From a virus, in IMG/VR virus record IMGVR_UViG_3300026257_000010, positions 1-31,602 of that record: 31,602 nucleotides of DNA. One strand, written 5' to 3'. Under the pieces are notes generated by a model. The model was not told the DNA's origin. It saw nothing but the letters and a program-made list of their open reading frames with translations, and did not search any database. Shown here piece by piece: positions 18,818-29,596 of the stretch (position 1 is the stretch's first letter; each line of letters begins with the position of its first letter). The position numbers and the translations under genes were made by a program.

Positions 18818-18829
18818 AAAGTGATTACA

Positions 18830-19498
18830 ATGAAAACTATTTTAACATTAAAATACGGTGACAAATACAGCGCAGACGCTGTTAATTCTATATACGAGCA
18901 CACAGAAGGCCGGTATAATTATGTCTGTGTAACTGATGACCCTAAGGGCCTGCACCCTGATATAGGTATTTTGTATTTAGAACATGAACCAAACGGTAAT
19001 ATGGAAAAGTTAAAACTATTCCAACTGAAAGACATGGGTACTATTCTGTACTTAGATTTAGATATAAGAATACAAAAACCAATAGATCATTTGTTTGATT
19101 ATTGTATTGATAATCCTGTTATAGTATATACATGGTGGAAAGACAAAGGCAATGAACAAATAAACATACACGACTTTCCATGGCAACCAGACTTTGTAGG
19201 TCCATTAAGTAATTATAATTCTAGTATTATGTTGTGGAAAGATGCAACGCATATATGGAAACATTATAACGAATATCCTGAGATGTATGATGTTCAATAT
19301 CCATATGGCGATGATACATTTTTATATCATGAAGGATTTACATTTGAACATTTACCTAATGAAGAGGTATATGCTTTTAGAACGACAGGAAGAAAGTATA
19401 GGCCCGAATATACAATATGCTTATTAAATGGCTTAGATAAAAACCCGGAGATTGAGAAAGAATATGATGAACTTTGTATGCATCAAGTGGGGCACTAA
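18830..19498 (+). CDS. Glycosyltransferase-like protein 1 (GT-A type, DLD motif), 222 aa
   Basis: This is a putative nucleotide-sugar-dependent glycosyltransferase. The N-terminal Rossmann-like strand TILTLKYGDKYSADAVNSIY (residues 3-22) aligns with the starts of three paralogues downstream. LYLDLDIRIQ holds the DxD metal-sugar motif at 76-78. NYNSSIMLW (129-137) and YGDDTFLYH (159-167) match the acceptor-side and catalytic-loop positions of the paralogues. The ATG at 18830 is used instead of GTG at 18821 because it matches the paralogues and because GTG would precede the predicted late start point. The substrate and sugar are unknown. Confidence 0.82.
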   Translation: MKTILTLKYGDKYSADAVNSIYEHTEGRYNYVCVTDDPKGLHPDIGILYLEHEPNGNMEKLKLFQLKDMGTILYLDLDIRIQKPIDHLFDYCIDNPVIVYTWWKDKGNEQINIHDFPWQPDFVGPLSNYNSSIMLWKDATHIWKHYNEYPEMYDVQYPYGDDTFLYHEGFTFEHLPNEEVYAFRTTGRKYRPEYTICLLNGLDKNPEIEKEYDELCMHQVGH

Positions 19499-20246
19499 AT
19501 ACGAACCACACTATGTAAACAACCTGTATCGTATGGTGCAGGAACACTATCACGACGACTTTACATTTACCTGTTTTACCGATGACCCTAAAGGATTAAA
19601 TTGTGATACTAGAGATATACCTGACATAGATCCTTTACATCCTAAATATTGGTTTGGTAAAGAAAACTATTGCTGGGATAGATCTAAATTTCTAGTATTC
19701 AACTCACATAACTTTTTAGGTTATGAAGGTAAATGGTGTTACTTAGATTTAGATGTTATTATACAGAGTGATATAACAGACTTAAATGAATTGGCCTTAA
19801 AGCCTAGGATAATAGATGTAACTTGGGACAATCCTAAAAGAATACACGAAAGAAGATTTATAGAAATTAGAGGATCATTATATAACTCTAGTGTAATGTG
19901 TTGGAATAGAGAACAATGTGAACATATATTCTGGGAGGCAATGGACGAAGATCAACAGATATTTAGAACATTTTTTAAAGGTACTGATAACTATCACTTC
20001 TGGAGACAAAGAGAGTTTTGGAATAACATACCACACGCGTGGGTGTATAGTTATAACCGAGGTATGCAATGGCCTGATGATTTAGAGGCATATAAATATA
20101 GAGAAGAACCTAAGTTTTGTTTGTTCAATGTGGATTCAAACCCACCACCCAAATCGAAGAAACAAATTAAGATTGATGAATTAGAAAATGAGACACTTTT
20201 GAGAATATGGCATGGTAACAATTATAGCAAATCAGCTAGACAATAA
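19464..20246 (+). CDS. Glycosyltransferase-like protein 2 (DLD motif), 260 aa
   Basis: This paralogue shares the FVCIKWGTKYEPHYVNNLY start, the FTCFTDDPKGL segment (also in the first gene), WCYLDLDVIIQ with DxD at 95-97, YNSSVMCW and GTDNYHFW, then WVYSYNRGMQW near the end. It is most like the 270-aa paralogue at 22229, with which it shares HPKYWF and a CWDR segment. The ATG at 19464 (or the adjacent one at 19467) is chosen over a TTG at 19452 by paralogue alignment; GAGAAAG lies upstream. It overlaps the first gene by 35 bases. It is probably a cytoplasmic sugar transferase acting on an unknown acceptor. Confidence 0.82.
   Translation: MMNFVCIKWGTKYEPHYVNNLYRMVQEHYHDDFTFTCFTDDPKGLNCDTRDIPDIDPLHPKYWFGKENYCWDRSKFLVFNSHNFLGYEGKWCYLDLDVIIQSDITDLNELALKPRIIDVTWDNPKRIHERRFIEIRGSLYNSSVMCWNREQCEHIFWEAMDEDQQIFRTFFKGTDNYHFWRQREFWNNIPHAWVYSYNRGMQWPDDLEAYKYREEPKFCLFNVDSNPPPKSKKQIKIDELENETLLRIWHGNNYSKSARQ
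20091..20098 (+). promoter_or_regulatory. Possible internal late promoter box
   Basis: TATAAATA on the plus strand lies inside glycosyltransferase gene 2, about 115 bases before the 496-aa gene. It is correctly oriented to serve the rest of the island, but a chance match in AT-rich coding sequence is equally plausible. Confidence 0.3.
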
Positions 20247-21702
20247 TTATAGTCAAAACCAAATAAATGCTTTTTATACGCAGTGCAAAAAACTGATAGA
20301 AAGGCCTTTTGACTTCTATGTCTTTATCAATAAAGAAGAAGAAAAACTACTAAAAGAAACTAAAAAGAAAGAAGGCTATATAGATTGTATTAACTTTCAT
20401 GTTCCTAAGTATGGTGTTGATTGGTTAGAAATAGATATCATGCAACATACAAAACCTAATAGTACTTCATTGTTTATTACACCTAACACTATTATTAACA
20501 ACATAGAGGACATAGAGACTTATAAGGCCAACAAGAAGATTAGACTTCAGGACGGTAACCTAGCATACTTTATTTTCCGAAACGATAAAGTAGAAAATAT
20601 ATTAGAAGAATGGGACGAATCTGAAGACAATCTATTATATGAATATGATATTTTTAGTGAGAAGTTTTTAATAGAGGAAGGTACTTTACCTTTCCTACAA
20701 GATAGTACAGCAACATACCCAGAAAAGATAGATGGAAATATAGTTGCATTGCCTTTTTGGTATGAGGATTTTACTGAAGAACAATTAGATATAATGTACA
20801 ATAAAGAAACAGACTTATATCCATGGCTACCTGAGAGGATAGAAATAAATCCAATAGACGGTGAAGACTATTTAACATTAGAACAAATAGAAGATACATT
20901 TACAAAAGACTATATAGAAAAATCTAAAATAAAAAGAATACATTTTAAAGGTACGAATACAGATCCTACATTAAACCCTGAACTATTTGATATTGCCCAC
21001 TTCTTTATGTCTAGGTGGGGCATAGGTGGTTGTGATATAACTACAAATGGCAAACACAATGAAACTATTTGGTGGAAGAACTTAGGTTTAATGTTTTTAG
21101 AAGCAGGCAATATTACATTTAATATTAATACAGGCAATCCAGATAGAAAAATATTACAAAATGCAGAAGCATTAATAGAATCTGGGTGTAGAGTGTTTTG
21201 GAATTATGTACATACAAATCAAATAGATTCAGACATACAAAAAGCTAAGAAGATATCAAAGCAATATAATTTTTATGGTTTTATATATGACAACCAAGTC
21301 CCTGAAACAAAAGAACCCATAAAGAAAAACATAAAACAAGAGATGCCAGACTATAAACTTATAGAACTAGAGACTCTACAGACACGAAAAAAAGACGACA
21401 TATATAAAGAGAGAACAATAAAATTTTCACCACATGTTAAGTGCGAAGGTAAAGTTAATAATTCATTTTATTTAAACGCAACAGGTAATGTGTTTCCCTG
21501 TAAACATGTGGCTCTTAATTTAACTACTGCAAATAATTCTCCTGAACACAAGACAGAATTGTTGTATAGTTGGGATAAGAATAATATAAATGAACACACA
21601 CTAGAAGAAATTTTTACAAATGACTTCTATAAAGGATACTTTAATAACCTATTAAAGTTAAATCCAGAAATAATACACAATGAACAAGGTGGAATATGTT
21701 AA
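20212..21702 (+). CDS. Fusion of degenerate GT-like domain and cysteine-poor radical-SAM/SPASM-like domain, 496 aa
   Basis: The N-terminal part (about residues 1-120) follows the paralogous glycosyltransferases: NNYSQNQINAFYTQC then FDFYVFIN. Where they have DLDxxI it reads FITPNTII, so DxD is lost. From about 205 on, the order of features matches radical SAM enzymes: LTLEQIEDTF, IHFKGTNTDPTLNPELFDI (243-261, the GGEP-like region), ITTNG (276-280) and WWKNLG. A SPASM-like tail carries C411, C430 in GNVFPCKHV and the C-terminal C496. The CxxxCxxC motif that binds the catalytic 4Fe-4S cluster is absent. It may be a pseudoenzyme or a scaffold. It overlaps the previous gene by 35 bases. Confidence 0.75.
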   Translation: MVTIIANQLDNNYSQNQINAFYTQCKKLIERPFDFYVFINKEEEKLLKETKKKEGYIDCINFHVPKYGVDWLEIDIMQHTKPNSTSLFITPNTIINNIEDIETYKANKKIRLQDGNLAYFIFRNDKVENILEEWDESEDNLLYEYDIFSEKFLIEEGTLPFLQDSTATYPEKIDGNIVALPFWYEDFTEEQLDIMYNKETDLYPWLPERIEINPIDGEDYLTLEQIEDTFTKDYIEKSKIKRIHFKGTNTDPTLNPELFDIAHFFMSRWGIGGCDITTNGKHNETIWWKNLGLMFLEAGNITFNINTGNPDRKILQNAEALIESGCRVFWNYVHTNQIDSDIQKAKKISKQYNFYGFIYDNQVPETKEPIKKNIKQEMPDYKLIELETLQTRKKDDIYKERTIKFSPHVKCEGKVNNSFYLNATGNVFPCKHVALNLTTANNSPEHKTELLYSWDKNNINEHTLEEIFTNDFYKGYFNNLLKLNPEIIHNEQGGIC

Positions 21703-21911
21703 AAGTAACAAACAAAAAATCAGTAATATTAGAGGGCACATTCGAAGACTACGATAACTATGTACCAATAATTAAAGAGTCAGAGTTTGCTGTACTCATT
21801 ATAAGAGCAGATATTACAGACTTTGATTTTAAAACAATGCAAGTTACGGATGAACTTGCTAAAAATAAACTCCAATACGGTAAGGACTATGTCATATGCA
21901 GGTTAAGTTAA
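21696..21911 (+). CDS. Small hypothetical protein, 71 aa
   Basis: I do not recognise this protein. It is acidic and soluble, with alternating strands and helices (SVILEGTFEDYDNYV, then FAVLIIRADITDFDF), suggesting a small alpha/beta fold. AGGTGGA sits immediately upstream of the ATG, a good ribosome site, and the gene overlaps the 496-aa gene by seven bases, so it is probably coupled to it. It could be a partner of that fusion protein, but only adjacency supports this. Confidence 0.7.
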   Translation: MLKVTNKKSVILEGTFEDYDNYVPIIKESEFAVLIIRADITDFDFKTMQVTDELAKNKLQYGKDYVICRLS

Positions 21912-21912
21912 T

Positions 21913-22239
21913 ATGATAAACAATGAAATGATGGATTTAGACGATCTTATTTATTATGTAGGTAAGTGGCACAAAGATAGAAATTTAATTGAAGGTGCAA
22001 ATGATAAAGATCAATTTTGTAAATTAATACAAGAATGTGGAGAACTATCTGATAACATCTGTAAAGGCAAAGATCTTAGAGATGATGTTGGAGATATAAT
22101 GGTTGTACTAATTAACATTTGCGTACGAAATAATATAACACTTGAAGAATGTCTACAGGTTGCTTATGACGACATAAAAGATCGTAAAGGCAAAATGGTA
22201 GACGGAGTATTCATAAAGGCAAAGGATCATGAGAGTTAA
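21913..22239 (+). CDS. MazG-like nucleotide pyrophosphohydrolase, 108 aa
   Basis: This is a putative NTP pyrophosphohydrolase of the all-alpha MazG superfamily, which hydrolyses nucleoside triphosphates to monophosphates and pyrophosphate with Mg2+. The motif pair is visible: QECGEL (E41, E44) followed by RDDVGDIMVVL (D58, D61), matching the ExxE and [E/D]xxD metal ligands. The following helix (CLQVAYDDIKDRKG) is also typical. In phages these enzymes have been linked to nucleotide recycling or control of host alarmones; which applies here cannot be told. It begins two bases after the preceding gene. Confidence 0.82.
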   Translation: MINNEMMDLDDLIYYVGKWHKDRNLIEGANDKDQFCKLIQECGELSDNICKGKDLRDDVGDIMVVLINICVRNNITLEECLQVAYDDIKDRKGKMVDGVFIKAKDHES

Positions 22240-23041
22240 TGTAGTATGTTCAAAATGGGGCGACAGATATGGTCCTCATTTTGTGAACAAATTAAAAAAT
22301 ATGTCAAAGAGAAATTGTAATCCGAAACATGATTTCCATTTCTATTGTTATACAGATAACGCTGAAGGTTTTGATGATGATATAAAAGTCATTCCTTTTC
22401 CAGACATTCCTAACATACATCCTAAGTATTGGTTCCAAAAGGACGACTTTAAATATGGTATGGCAAGATGTTGGGATAGGCCTAAGACAATGGTATTCAA
22501 TACGCATAACTTTGCTGAAGATAAACCCACAGGTCGTTTCATATTTTTTGATTTAGATGTTATTATACAAAATGACATAGAGCCTTTATTGACCTATAAT
22601 ATGGAAAGACCAACTAAGTTAAGAAGCTGGTGGCAAGACCCGCGCCCAATGAAGACGCGGAGATTTAAATTATCTCATGGAGCATATACTAATGGCAGTT
22701 GTCAAGTTTGGTCCGACGATCAAGCAGAATGTATATGGCATGATGTATTAGAGAATCAAGAAAAGATTTGGTTCACATATACAGACGGAACAGATAACTA
22801 TCACTCATGGCGATGGGGTGATTGGGGCAAAAAATTATGGGATCACTTTCCTTCAGACTATGCGTACTCGTATAACCGAGGCCGTAGTTGGCAAGATGAT
22901 GATTTAACCACAGAGATATATAGGGAAACACCTATTCTCTGTGTATTTAATATTGATCTACTACCACAACCAACACCAGATAGAGGCAAAGTAAAACAGA
23001 ACGAACTAGTAGATCCGGAGTTATTAAAGCATTGGCAATGA
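22229..23041 (+). CDS. Glycosyltransferase-like protein 3 (DLD motif), 270 aa
   Basis: This third paralogue starts VNVVCSKWGDRYGPHFVNKL, then has FYCYTDNAEGF, HPKYWFQKDDF, CWDRPKTMVFNTHNF and FFDLDVIIQ with DxD at 108-110. The later positions YTNGSCQVW, GTDNYHSWRWGDWG and YAYSYNRGRSW align with the second gene, its closest relative. The basic TRRFKLSHGAY stretch (about 150-160) could contact an acidic acceptor. The ATG is preceded at short spacing by AAGGA and overlaps the MazG-like gene by 11 bases. The acceptor and sugar are unknown. Confidence 0.82.
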   Translation: MRVNVVCSKWGDRYGPHFVNKLKNMSKRNCNPKHDFHFYCYTDNAEGFDDDIKVIPFPDIPNIHPKYWFQKDDFKYGMARCWDRPKTMVFNTHNFAEDKPTGRFIFFDLDVIIQNDIEPLLTYNMERPTKLRSWWQDPRPMKTRRFKLSHGAYTNGSCQVWSDDQAECIWHDVLENQEKIWFTYTDGTDNYHSWRWGDWGKKLWDHFPSDYAYSYNRGRSWQDDDLTTEIYRETPILCVFNIDLLPQPTPDRGKVKQNELVDPELLKHWQ

Positions 23042-23712
23042 ACATTTATACAGTAAAATGGGGCAGTAAATATTCTGCCAATCATGTGAACAAGATATAC
23101 GAATCCTGTCTGGAATCTATATCTCAAAGCTTTACATTTTACTGTTTAACAGAAAACGCAAAAGGAATTAATCCTGATGTTAATATAATTCCATTTCCTA
23201 AAGATAATAAGTTAGAGAAGTGGTGGAATAAGATGTACTTGTTTGATGATAATGTTGTAAGACAAAAAGGTGAGAACTTATTCTTTGACTTAGATATTAT
23301 TATTCAAAAGAACATAGATGATATAGTAAACTTTGATCCTGAAGACTGTCTATGTTTTGGCCAAACACATTGGCATGATTTAGAAACACAAAAGAAAGAA
23401 ACAGAACATGTTCCTCACAGATATACAGATTTAAATTCTAGTATATTAAGATGGAACGACAATTTAGATAAAGAGAATATTACTCTTTATTTTAAATCAC
23501 ACAAAGAAAAAATCTTATGGTACTATCGGGGATTAGATAACTTCTTTATGCACAAAGGTGTAGCAAGAATTAAATACTTTCCTTTAGGGTGGTTTTATAG
23601 TTATAACCAAGGCTATATATTTCCACATGATATAGAAAAACATGTATTCAGACAAATACCATATGTCTGTTTATTTGATTCAATGGGAAGAAAAGAAGAT
23701 GTTAAATTTTAA
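23038..23712 (+). CDS. Glycosyltransferase-like protein 4 (DLD motif), 224 aa
   Basis: The fourth paralogue has IYTVKWGSKYSANHVNKIY at the start, FTFYCLTENAKGINPDV, LFFDLDIIIQKNIDDI with DxD at 84-86, LNSSILRW, RGLDNFFMH and FYSYNQGYIF. Its ATG overlaps the stop of the third gene (ATGA), which supports coupled translation and the choice of 23038 over a TTG at 23032. It resembles the first gene in size. Four such genes in one island suggest either different acceptors or successive sugar additions; this is inference. Confidence 0.82.
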   Translation: MNIYTVKWGSKYSANHVNKIYESCLESISQSFTFYCLTENAKGINPDVNIIPFPKDNKLEKWWNKMYLFDDNVVRQKGENLFFDLDIIIQKNIDDIVNFDPEDCLCFGQTHWHDLETQKKETEHVPHRYTDLNSSILRWNDNLDKENITLYFKSHKEKILWYYRGLDNFFMHKGVARIKYFPLGWFYSYNQGYIFPHDIEKHVFRQIPYVCLFDSMGRKEDVKF

Positions 23713-24367
23713 TTTTTTAAATAACTTACAACATTGGGGCGATGCTCTTGCTAAAGTAGAGCATGAGATGAAACATAAGCATGATGACTTTAGACAGGCA
23801 TTAAATCCTAATACAATGGAAGCTGCTATATGGCTAGTTGAAGAACTTAAAAATAGTTTAGGCGACTATATGAAAGAGGAACAATTTAATGTTCTTGTAT
23901 TAAACAGCTGGTTAGGCATTCCTTTAGTTCCTCTCTTATGTGAGAACTTATCCATAGGTGAAATGCACCTAGTTGACATCGATAAAGAAGCTTTAGAGCT
24001 CTCTAAGGTGTTTAATAAGCATTATATAGCAGAAGAATACATAAAAATAAATCACTGGAACATGGACATTCCATTCGCATTTGACGAACTAAATCAATTG
24101 AAGGTTGATGTAGTTATTACAATGGGAGCAGAGCAAATGTATCCATTGAAAGATTTAAAGACAGCAAACAAACATGCTATATTTGCTGTTCAAAACTCTA
24201 ATGTAATAGAAGAGATGTATGGTATTAATTGTGTTGATAGTGAGAAAGCATTAATAGAAAATGCAGGACTAAAAGACACCACATACTCAGGTAAAACAAA
24301 ACAGTTCTATTATGATTGGAACGGGAAGGTCTATTTTGATAGGTTCATGGCAATTGGCACGAAATAA
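23699..24367 (+). CDS. SAM-dependent methyltransferase-like protein, 222 aa
   Basis: The central region reads NVLVLNSWLGIPLVPLL (residues 64-80), where class I methyltransferases have the glycine-rich SAM loop, followed by MHLVDIDKEALELSK with acidic residues at the end of strand 2 (D93, D95). A further strand, VDVVITMGAEQMYP, fits motif IV. The canonical GxGxG is not present, so activity is uncertain. The ATG at 23699 is preferred to one at 23642 because the longer form would lie deep inside the fourth glycosyltransferase gene; overlap is then 14 bases. The substrate is unknown; it could be a sugar, protein or small molecule. Confidence 0.65.
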   Translation: MLNFNFLNNLQHWGDALAKVEHEMKHKHDDFRQALNPNTMEAAIWLVEELKNSLGDYMKEEQFNVLVLNSWLGIPLVPLLCENLSIGEMHLVDIDKEALELSKVFNKHYIAEEYIKINHWNMDIPFAFDELNQLKVDVVITMGAEQMYPLKDLKTANKHAIFAVQNSNVIEEMYGINCVDSEKALIENAGLKDTTYSGKTKQFYYDWNGKVYFDRFMAIGTK

Positions 24368-26395: not shown

Positions 26396-27043
26396 TTAGG
26401 AGAAATCTAATGGATCTTCTCCTGAAATATCACTAATCATGTCCCTCCACATGTCGATATTAGGGATTACGAACCCTAATGTAAGCCTAGGTTCGTATGT
26501 TCCAGCACAATGATAGTAAACTTTATCAGGTTCTCTGCCCCTTCCAAAGTATCCTACTTTGCCACACCAGCCTCCTGGATCTAACATTTTAACGACTTCA
26601 TGCGTGGCAGGATCTCTATAATTAAAGAACCCACCACCATTTTTTGTGTATGATAATAATATATTATATCCATGTGCGTTCCAGTTATTGTGCCAACCCA
26701 TGAATCCGTTTTTAGGATAATACACATGGACGGCCTCGTTGCGAGCGCCTAACCATGAACACAATTCTGTAGACATTTCTAAATATTTCTCTTGAAATTC
26801 GCCTGGTAAATTACCACCCTTTAAATCATAACTGTATGATATTTCCGGATAGCCTATATGCTGTCCATCTTTTTTTACTATCTCTTCTAGATATTCATCT
26901 GAACAGGCATGTTCAATTGTATTTGTATTCTTTTCATTTTCTTTGGCTTTTTGATTCAGCCAATTAAGTTCTTGCCTGAAGAACCATTCAGTATAAGGCG
27001 TTAATATTTCTAAAACTTCGTCTGATATACTAATCCATCGCAT
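26396..27043 (-). CDS. 2-oxoglutarate/Fe(II)-dependent oxygenase, 215 aa
   Basis: This is a putative hydroxylase using Fe(II), O2 and 2-oxoglutarate. The double-stranded beta-helix core is visible: GWHNNWNAHGYNILLSY (residues 116-132) with first ligand H118, GGGFFNYRDP, a strand with GWCGKVGYFG, then YYHCAGTYEPRLTLGF with distal H178 and R186, the usual 2-oxoglutarate anchor. The second ligand of HxD/E would be N120, which is unusual. It joins the glycosyltransferase gene by a TAATG overlap and probably shares the late promoter at 28292. Substrates could be a virion protein, DNA base or glycan; late expression favours a virion protein. Confidence 0.85.
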   Translation of the reverse strand: MRWISISDEVLEILTPYTEWFFRQELNWLNQKAKENEKNTNTIEHACSDEYLEEIVKKDGQHIGYPEISYSYDLKGGNLPGEFQEKYLEMSTELCSWLGARNEAVHVYYPKNGFMGWHNNWNAHGYNILLSYTKNGGGFFNYRDPATHEVVKMLDPGGWCGKVGYFGRGREPDKVYYHCAGTYEPRLTLGFVIPNIDMWRDMISDISGEDPLDFS

Positions 27044-27789
27044 TATTTTCTCTTTAAATGTATTTCATGTTCGGGTATAGTGTAATGCCAAAAAACAATC
27101 TCCTCATCTTCCAATTCACTATCTTTATAACCATTAACAAAATTCCATCTTACATGTAAATCATCTTTCCATTTTACTTTTGTATCGCCATACTCTAATA
27201 ACTTCCACATAGTAAAGGTATCCCATTTTCTTACATCATCAGGATAATCACCTATGTCATTTACATACCCATGATCGTTATGAAGATTTTGTGCAATATA
27301 TTCTCCATACCAATCTTCCATTAACTTAATTGTATGAGGATTATTCCTATATAAAAACCAACCACAATGTGCTGTCATTTCTTCTGTGTTAGATAACTTT
27401 GTTACTTTAGCATTATATGGCCTGATCTTTGTAAACAATAAATCTAAATCATCTGGTAGTTGTTCAAATACATTTTCTACATCTTCATGTTGGCATACCA
27501 TATCAGCATCTAAATAACATGTTATTCCTTTGTATGGTGTGTTACCTAAAGCCCAAAGTTTAGCTCTAATATGTTTAGGCACTTCCCAATGTACTATATA
27601 ATCTGCGTGATTCCAATCACTAGGTTTAATCCATTCTTCATGATCTACGAATACTGTTATGTGTGCTTCAGGCCAAAAGAGTTTTACAGACTCTGCACAC
27701 TCTATTGCTGCTTTGTAGAACCTCTCTTTTAAAGATGCTACTATTATGAATCCGTTCTCAGGAAACTCTTCAGGATTCCTTTTGTTCAT
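27043..27789 (-). CDS. Glycosyltransferase-like protein 5 (DAD motif), 248 aa
   Basis: This is a GT-A-type sugar transferase. NGFIIVASLKERFYKAAIE starts the nucleotide-binding fold, ITVFVDHEEW follows, and ITCYLDADMVCQ carries DxD at 94-96. Later segments are HCGWFLYRN (about 136-144), KWDTFTMWKLLEY and VFWHYT near the C-terminus, a usual place for a metal-binding His. It is related in plan to the four plus-strand proteins but clearly more distant. GGAG precedes the ATG by seven bases. The stop overlaps the oxygenase ATG. The pairing of hydroxylase and glycosyltransferase in one late operon suggests hydroxylation followed by sugar addition; this is inference. Confidence 0.85.
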   Translation of the reverse strand: MNKRNPEEFPENGFIIVASLKERFYKAAIECAESVKLFWPEAHITVFVDHEEWIKPSDWNHADYIVHWEVPKHIRAKLWALGNTPYKGITCYLDADMVCQHEDVENVFEQLPDDLDLLFTKIRPYNAKVTKLSNTEEMTAHCGWFLYRNNPHTIKLMEDWYGEYIAQNLHNDHGYVNDIGDYPDDVRKWDTFTMWKLLEYGDTKVKWKDDLHVRWNFVNGYKDSELEDEEIVFWHYTIPEHEIHLKRK

Positions 27790-28306: not shown

Positions 28307-29596
28307 TTAAGCAGTTCTAAGCCACAATTTTACCGTACTGACTGTTTCGTTTGAAGCTTGAATTGTGTCGCCTGAGTATGTTCCGGAATAATAGCCTGTA
28401 TATGTTCCAGAGTATGTGCCTGCGTATGCTGAGGTTCCTGTGTAAGTACCTGTGTAATCTTTAGCGCCTGTATATGAACCTGCGTATGCTGAGGTTCCAG
28501 TATATGTTCCTGAATAGTTTTTAGCGCCTGTATAATATCCTGTGTAAGTACCTGTATAAGATCCTGTGTATGATGTTCCGGCATAGCCATCATAAGATGC
28601 TGCGTATGTTCCGGAGTAGTTGCCTGAATAAGCTCCTGAATAACCTGATGTTCCTGTGTAAGCTCCAGTATAGTTTTTAGCTCCTGTGTATGAGCCTGCG
28701 TACGCTGATGTTCCTGTGTAAGTCCCAGAATAGTTCTTAGCGCCTGTGTAGTTGCCTGTGTAACCTCCTGTATAGTTACCTGTGTAAGCTCCAGTATAGT
28801 TTGCTGCTGCTACTTCTTTCTTTGTGTCTATGAATGAGCCTTGATCAACCCATGTACCTGAACCAGGAGCACTTGCTTGTAATACATATTTCCCTTTACC
28901 ACTAGAAATCATGTAATTTCTTAAGTTAGGAACCGTCTGTTCCATTTCTGCTACTGTCATTTCTTGTACGCCAGCGCCACCACCTGTTACTTTAAGTGGT
29001 TTGTAATCTGTAACTGCTGCAGTTGTTGCTGCTGTTTTTTGCCAAATCTTATATGCTGTTGTAGTGCCATCTACTTCTGTGTTGTTTAAAGTATATCTAG
29101 CAGTCCATGTTCCGCCTGAAGGAGAACCTGTTGCTAGTTTGTATTGGCCAATAGTGTAATCGCCTTGGGCACACAAATCATCTATTACTTTATCTAAAAT
29201 ATCTGAATCAAGTTCGCCGTCTGTAAACTCATTTATACCGACTGTGCCACTTGTTTCATATCCTAAAGGTCTGTTAGTTACGCTTTCTGATACCACCGTT
29301 TCTACTTGTTTCGCTGTGTAAGTAGTAACTGTAGAACTCGCACCATCTGTTGGGTGCGTTCCTACTGCGTCGTCTCTTACTGTATCTGTTGCTGTACCTA
29401 TAGAAGTACCTGCCCCTGAAGCATCTGTTGTAACATTTAATTCTACAGTACCTGTTCCGTCTGTATTGTCTGCAATATCTTTTGTTAGAATTGCACTGTA
29501 ATACCGTTCGATCTCTGTATCAGTCATTTCTTGTAACCCTTGAAGGTTACTAGAACTAACTGGATATGCTGATGCTTTAATTCTTAGAGGTCTCAT
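28307..29596 (-). CDS. Tail fibre-like protein with Tyr-Thr-Gly repeats, 429 aa
   Basis: The N-terminal part has RPLRIKASAYPVSSSNLQ and LQEMTDTEIERYYSAIL (21-37), a motif echoed at 210-220 as VQEMTVAEMEQ. Residues 227-250 (NYMISSGKGKYVLQASAPG, then SGTW) are of a type I recall from marine T4-like virion proteins. Residues 267-409 are about 30 consecutive units of Tyr-[Thr/Ser/Ala]-Gly-x, some spaced by AKN or TSA. The last 20 residues are ordinary sequence ending KLWLRTA. It is probably an adhesin or fibre. The repeat offers many Tyr, Thr and Ser hydroxyls and sits next to the oxygenase/glycosyltransferase operon. Confidence 0.85.
   Translation of the reverse strand: MRPLRIKASAYPVSSSNLQGLQEMTDTEIERYYSAILTKDIADNTDGTGTVELNVTTDASGAGTSIGTATDTVRDDAVGTHPTDGASSTVTTYTAKQVETVVSESVTNRPLGYETSGTVGINEFTDGELDSDILDKVIDDLCAQGDYTIGQYKLATGSPSGGTWTARYTLNNTEVDGTTTAYKIWQKTAATTAAVTDYKPLKVTGGGAGVQEMTVAEMEQTVPNLRNYMISSGKGKYVLQASAPGSGTWVDQGSFIDTKKEVAAANYTGAYTGNYTGGYTGNYTGAKNYSGTYTGTSAYAGSYTGAKNYTGAYTGTSGYSGAYSGNYSGTYAASYDGYAGTSYTGSYTGTYTGYYTGAKNYSGTYTGTSAYAGSYTGAKDYTGTYTGTSAYAGTYSGTYTGYYSGTYSGDTIQASNETVSTVKLWLRTA
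28367..28798 (-). repeat. Tandem Y-[TSA]-G-x coding repeat
   Basis: About 30 short units of 9 to 18 bases encode Tyr-Thr/Ser/Ala-Gly. A higher-order unit, AKNYSGTYTGTSAYAGSYTG, is present at 28667-28741 and again, with one change at its end, at 28450-28525, 216 bases apart. Copies differ at third positions. Such arrays can change length by slippage or unequal recombination. Confidence 0.9.

Follow-up and report, generated by a model that had tools for sequence, protein, structure and literature searches.

What is left for a protein to do when it keeps two enzyme folds and has lost the catalytic signatures of both? The question is raised by one open reading frame in a 31,602-nucleotide stretch of viral DNA (positions 1 to 31,602 of IMG/VR record IMGVR_UViG_3300026257_000010), here called the window. 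The window is a piece of a T4-like marine myophage, whose terminase large subunit is approximately 50% identical to its nearest counterparts, those of Pelagibacter phage Mosig and the cyanomyoviruses. The frame (20212-21702) sits within an island of plus-strand genes, with minus-strand structural genes on both sides. The genes of the island are the following:

18821-19498, plus strand: GT1, glycosyltransferase with DLD (phrog_1962, E 1e-9)
19452-20246, plus strand: GT2, glycosyltransferase with DLD, its 3' end overlapping the start of the fusion gene by 35 bases (open reading frame, operon survey)
20212-21702, plus strand: the fusion gene, coding for a double pseudoenzyme of 496 aa with a GT8-like and a radical-SAM/SPASM-like domain (open reading frame; orthologues in 77 IMG/VR contigs)
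21696-21911, plus strand: conserved 71-aa protein directly 3' of the fusion gene (alignment; survey below)
21913-22239, plus strand: MazG-like protein (PF03819), with ThyX or nothing at this place in relatives
22229-23041, plus strand: GT3, glycosyltransferase with DLD (library/profile match)
23032-23712, plus strand: GT4, glycosyltransferase with DLD (phrog_1962, E 9e-9)
23642-24367, plus strand: class-I methyltransferase-like protein at the operon end, weakly identified (Spermine_synth, E 0.016, below cut-off)

The gene order GT1-GT2-fusion-71aa-(ThyX/MazG)-GT3-GT4-methyltransferase is fixed, and the fusion gene thereby holds a constant place among four DLD glycosyltransferases. GT2 lies immediately 5' of it in 68 of 68 loci with flanking sequence, and the 71-aa frame lies immediately 3' wherever the flank is long enough (60 of 60 loci). 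GT3, GT4 and the methyltransferase-like gene come next. When GT3 loci were surveyed instead, a fusion-type gene was found at 76 of 80, the other four being too short upstream. The 71-aa protein has no Pfam or NCBIfam match; it also follows the gene of the relative L290. One exchange slot interrupts the otherwise fixed operon, noted at 21913-22239 (plus strand) and in L003, L004, L009 and L014-L016. In the window a MazG-like gene occupies the slot; many relatives have ThyX there, and in most others it is empty. Outside the plus-strand operon, on the minus strand, an oxygenase-like gene (26396-27043) adjoins a further glycosyltransferase-like gene (27043-27789), both identified by eye and with no library match. 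A minus-strand frame at 28307-29596 has dense YTG/YSG repeats; it is possibly a tail fibre and a conceivable glycosylation acceptor.

The C-terminal half carries the following features:

20824-21294, plus strand: radical-SAM-like barrel, residues 205-361 (profile alignment and structural matches, below)
20848-20871, plus strand: deletion site of the CxxxCxxC cluster loop, residues 213-220 (alignment with L041, L029, L032 and 23 further intact rows)
20950-20967, plus strand: GTNTDP, remnant of the radical-SAM GxxGDP (alignment; not conserved among relatives)
21037-21051, plus strand: ITTNG, the radical-SAM (h)TNG landmark (alignment with intact enzymes)
21124-21144, plus strand: second deletion, residues 305-311, where DG...YR after beta-4 is absent (alignment with intact enzymes)
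21334-21426, plus strand: low-confidence linker, residues 375-405 (pLDDT <50)
21427-21699, plus strand: SPASM/twitch-like tail with C411 (21442-21444), C430 (21499-21501) and C496 (21697-21699), the last residue (Pfam PF13186, conservation)

Searched alone, residues 205-496 matched NCBIfam TIGR04317 (E 1.9e-7) and phrog_21308 (E 1.2e-7), and the family profile aligned with the intact phage radical SAM proteins over 272 columns (hhalign, 99.8%, E 3e-28; best of 60 column-shuffled profiles 0.017). Similarity to Radical_SAM PF04055 stays below the cut-off of that family: the related fusion proteins L092 and L051 matched it at E 2.6e-5 and 1.7e-3 (hmmscan), and the genome search gave 2e-6 and 7e-6, but the best of them, L092, reached 24.9 bits against a cut-off of 29.5, and the window protein was not listed. 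The first-pass annotation, made from the letters of the window alone, had recognized the order of radical-SAM landmarks and the missing CxxxCxxC, and both observations hold. By alignment, GTNTDPTLNP, ITTNG and WWKNLG are true landmarks, equivalent to CGNHGDPVTCK, MHTNG and KVWNRIG of the intact paralogue L041:9961-11229, and CxxxCxxC is absent from the window protein as well as from 77 of 77 relatives. The motif was removed by deletion of the entire cluster loop, and the second SAM-site element, DG...YR after beta-4, was deleted too. Compared with PF04055 enzymes, the protein thus has the barrel and lacks both CxxxCxxC and the SAM-binding elements (GGE-like motif, beta-4 segment). With the same intact paralogue as query, 80 phage loci were found, and the motif CN/QxxCPxC was present in all 43 that were checked. 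Descent of the fusion proteins is seen in the tree, where they form a single clade (support 1.0) nested inside the intact phage radical SAMs.

The 77 relatives, retrieved from IMG/VR contigs by an N-terminal profile search, comprise 59 distinct proteins. It had been anticipated that close homologues at this locus might carry an intact CxxxCxxC and make the window copy merely decayed; with the motif in none of the 77 and a dN/dS of 0.15 (60 pairs), a decayed single copy is ruled out. By region the ratio is 0.11 in the GT-like part, 0.15 in the barrel and 0.12 in the SPASM part, and selection therefore acts strongly on the function of the protein. In L075 (4001-5480) and L234 the fusion gene is frame-split (346 aa and the rest), possibly through assembly error. 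This split, together with the drifting GxxGDP motif, could be taken to mean that the gene is functionless and decaying throughout, an explanation that is hardly credible given a full-length frame in 67 of the 77 contigs (most of the others being cut by contig ends), the low dN/dS and the fixed operon. A frameshift or gene-call artefact was also rejected as the source of the frame, which is intact and of a length kept among relatives. Annotated homologues were not found in 50,697 phage records, either for the full-length protein (tblastn, E 0.01) or for its C-terminal half (tblastn, E 10), and the PDB held no match by sequence. The one match in the species genomes was to a Flavobacteriales MAG, on a contig of 11,980 bp that has the same operon. 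As this lone contig is likely a phage contig, a bacterial origin of the gene was dismissed.

The phages concerned also encode intact radical SAM proteins. The 170-kb contig G001 (IMGVR_UViG_3300020472_001862) carries the fusion gene and at least nine of them (noted at L041:4502-11232, L034 and L036-L038): eight that score above the cut-off and, in addition, the closest paralogue, L041:9961-11229. Five lie in tandem, and a carbamoyltransferase gene and oxygenase-like genes come after them. Much the same holds for G009 and for G028 (165 kb), fusion-bearing contigs that encode several intact radical SAMs. An 830-aa phage frame (L195:2974-5463) contains two tandem radical-SAM regions, with a strong SPASM match (PF13186, E 1e-12) before the second. 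Radical-SAM gene cassettes and GT8-type genes have been reported from the variable regions of pelagimyophages (PMC7029224), and Campylobacter phages have been reported to be rich in radical SAM (PMC2853527). Since the fusion-bearing contigs can encode so many intact enzymes, the fusion protein could be their partner or inhibitor, the dead half of a heterodimer. We consider this improbable, as the intact genes are far from the operon (at 11-19 kb in G001, with the operon at about 70 kb) and the fixed neighbours are glycosyltransferases.

The tail is a more mixed case. That it is SPASM-like and has C411, C430 and C496 was correctly seen in the first-pass annotation; the cluster retention that this implied is weakened. 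The match to PF13186 (19.7 bits, E 1e-3) is below the cut-off of 21.5 bits, and in place of the complete cysteine set of that family the window protein has three cysteines, one of them variable. All 35 representatives have C411 and C496; 31 have C430, and the other four have Ser or Phe there. The last residue is Cys in all complete family proteins except the frame-split L075. L290, which is 40% identical to the window protein and lacks the same cluster loop, ends in CKLKCGAC, and the window protein has HNEQGGIC at the same place, so that His489 and Gly493 replace two of the three tail cysteines. The complete set (...C...FPC...CxxxCxxC) occurs in L290 and in a group of relatives fused to GT2. 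Because L290 retains it, the auxiliary-cluster ligands appear to have eroded later in the window group: judging from the sequences, in the clade's ancestor they probably outlasted the radical cluster, and the window group lost two thereafter, an order drawn from a comparison of two states. A tail in which C411, C430, C496 and another ligand still bind a metal or an Fe-S cluster, structural or redox in role and without radical chemistry, would agree with the two invariant cysteines, the wide presence of the third and the full sets of L290 and the GT2-fused relatives. The substitutions at C430 and the His489/Gly493 pair speak against it, and we regard such a site as unlikely. As the main explanation of the protein, a retained SPASM cluster is weakened by the loss of C430 in some relatives.

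Two features define the N-terminal half:

20212-20823, plus strand: GT8-like domain without DxD, residues 1-204 (hhalign to GT4; AF2 model matches 3tzt, 5gvw GlyE and LARGE1)
20479-20496, plus strand: TPNTII, at the position of DLDxxI in the flanking glycosyltransferases (profile alignment)

Domain libraries gave nothing significant with this half, and it does not resemble the C-terminal half. A profile of 36 family members matched GT4 (hhalign, 73%, E 3e-5), GT2 (E 5e-4) and GT3 (E 7e-4), with 0.03 as the best of 60 column-shuffled profiles and 0.1-0.5 for unrelated window proteins. In this comparison TPNTII pairs with DLDVII of GT4, GT3 and GT2, as had been noticed by eye. With moderate confidence, resting on sequence and model, the half can be called a relative of the flanking glycosyltransferases. 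T90-P91-N92 is invariant in the 35 representatives and occurs also in L290, and TPN is present in every relative in the 77 contigs whose sequence covers the site. The alignment stops near residue 145, and C-terminal glycosyltransferase motifs such as DNYHSWRWG have no aligned counterpart. With respect to GT8 (PF01501), the predicted model has the GT-A fold, and TPN stands where DxD would be.

Metal-independent GT-A enzymes exist, and a missing DxD alone is not proof of a dead glycosyltransferase. The domain might thus be an active transferase with TPN for DxD, the radical-SAM remnant binding its acceptor. Strict invariance of TPN, kept in L290 even at that distance, could mean an unusual active site, and the domain has the lowest regional dN/dS and a preserved fold. 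On the other side, the C-terminal motifs are unmatched, and four DLD neighbours make another transferase unnecessary, though they do not exclude one; on balance we find this rather unlikely.

The AF2 model of the whole protein has a mean pLDDT of 83.6 and a pTM of 0.82. The alignment behind it consisted of 35 rows from the family and 24 from intact radical SAMs, the latter trimmed; with only 11 close sequences the pLDDT was 46. Because of the intact radical-SAM rows, the barrel match depends partly on the sequence result, whereas the glycosyltransferase fold is independent of it, no GT rows having been included. Compared with radical SAM barrels, the model gave Z 17.2 with PqqE (VIA-align, rmsd 3.5 over 229 residues), 16.8 with SuiB and 15.6 with SkfB, and it aligns also with BlsE, BtrN, viperin and MoaA. 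Foldseek returned the GT8 structures GlyE 5gvw (E 1e-5), 3tzt_B (E 3e-4) and LARGE1, and phage glycosyltransferases in BFVD were among the matches. Profiles and predicted structure thus agree with the initial proposal that both folds were kept and both catalytic signatures lost.

Since both signatures are gone, the protein is probably a helper that positions or regulates its active neighbours and not an enzyme. The neighbourhood and the GT2-fused relatives lead us to favour a helper of glycosyltransferases over a new activity. Those distant relatives (L262-L289) include three of the 76 GT3 loci (L262-L264), where the gene is of another type and encodes a single 739-aa polypeptide. In it an intact GT2 is linked through a middle part to half a radical-SAM barrel, and this to a SPASM tail that has all its cysteines. 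Such polypeptides range up to 911 aa, with a middle of varying length (L263:2792-5008, L268:4989-7205, L280:4989-7505, L284:2374-5106). The family profile recognizes their C-terminal part (E 1e-13). Natural fusion of a related, more reduced remnant to an active GT2 suggests that the radical-SAM/SPASM remnant works with GT2. The same relatives are silent on the pseudo-GT part, because in profile comparisons their middle has no detectable relation to pseudo-GT, GT or radical SAM.

We give roughly even odds to the reading that the double pseudoenzyme serves the phage glycosyltransferases as an adaptor or co-activator. The protein would bind the active glycosyltransferases, most directly GT2; its dead GT fold would act as the partner of an active one, and the radical-SAM/SPASM fold would hold or select the acceptor, in a division of labour resembling that of GtfA/GtfB. 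A phage tail protein, a host surface glycan or some other molecule may serve as acceptor. The radical-SAM/SPASM folds of PqqE, SuiB and SkfB bind and act on peptide substrates, and by analogy an acceptor-binding role for this half would be reasonable. More tentatively, and possible without being the likelier case, the fold may have turned stepwise into an acceptor-recognition module of glycosyltransferases: the radical cluster would have gone first, the auxiliary cluster would have been kept for a while, as in L290 and the GT2-fused relatives, and then eroded, with the dead GT domain serving for docking.

Pseudo-radical-SAM proteins have scarcely been studied, and the literature found mentions them in passing. 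The locus offers a natural series from intact enzyme through cluster-free fold to half barrel, under purifying selection and in one operon, and it opens the testable question of how a radical-SAM/SPASM fold is used without radical chemistry. Marine T4-like phages carry glycosyltransferase islands whose proposed purpose is a change of the host surface against competitors (PMC7029224), and the locus offers a way into studying these islands.

Degenerate radical-SAM/SPASM proteins and dead GT partners are each already known; their fusion was not reported in the literature searched, most subscription papers lying outside that search. The nearest enzymes are the phage radical SAM/SPASM and twitch proteins (phrog_21308; nearest profiles NF033640 and TIGR04317), with which the fusion protein shares the barrel order, the (h)TNG, a counterpart of the HNEHQ region and the SPASM-like tail. 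It differs from them in the deleted cluster loop and DG...YR, in fewer tail cysteines and in the GT-like domain in front. TIGR04347, the NCBIfam 'pseudo-SAM/SPASM protein' of haloarchaea, is likewise a degenerate radical-SAM/SPASM family. It is a weak match of the intact phage enzymes and was matched neither by the window protein at E 10 nor by L092, L051 and L044 at E 0.1; to our knowledge, the archaeal family has no GT-like domain. With GT8 proteins (3tzt, GlyE 5gvw, LARGE1) and the phage glycosyltransferases of phrog_1962 the N-terminal half shares the GT-A fold, but TPN replaces DxD and the profile similarity to the flanking enzymes is weak. The closest likeness in working is to GtfA/GtfB of the serine-rich repeat adhesins, where transfer is the task of GtfA and acceptor binding falls to GtfB, which acts as a chaperone (PMC6973325). 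That pair has other GT folds and no radical-SAM part, and no homology is claimed; what the two systems have in common is a non-transferring GT partner next to an active glycosyltransferase, which in the phage operon is seen from genomic position.
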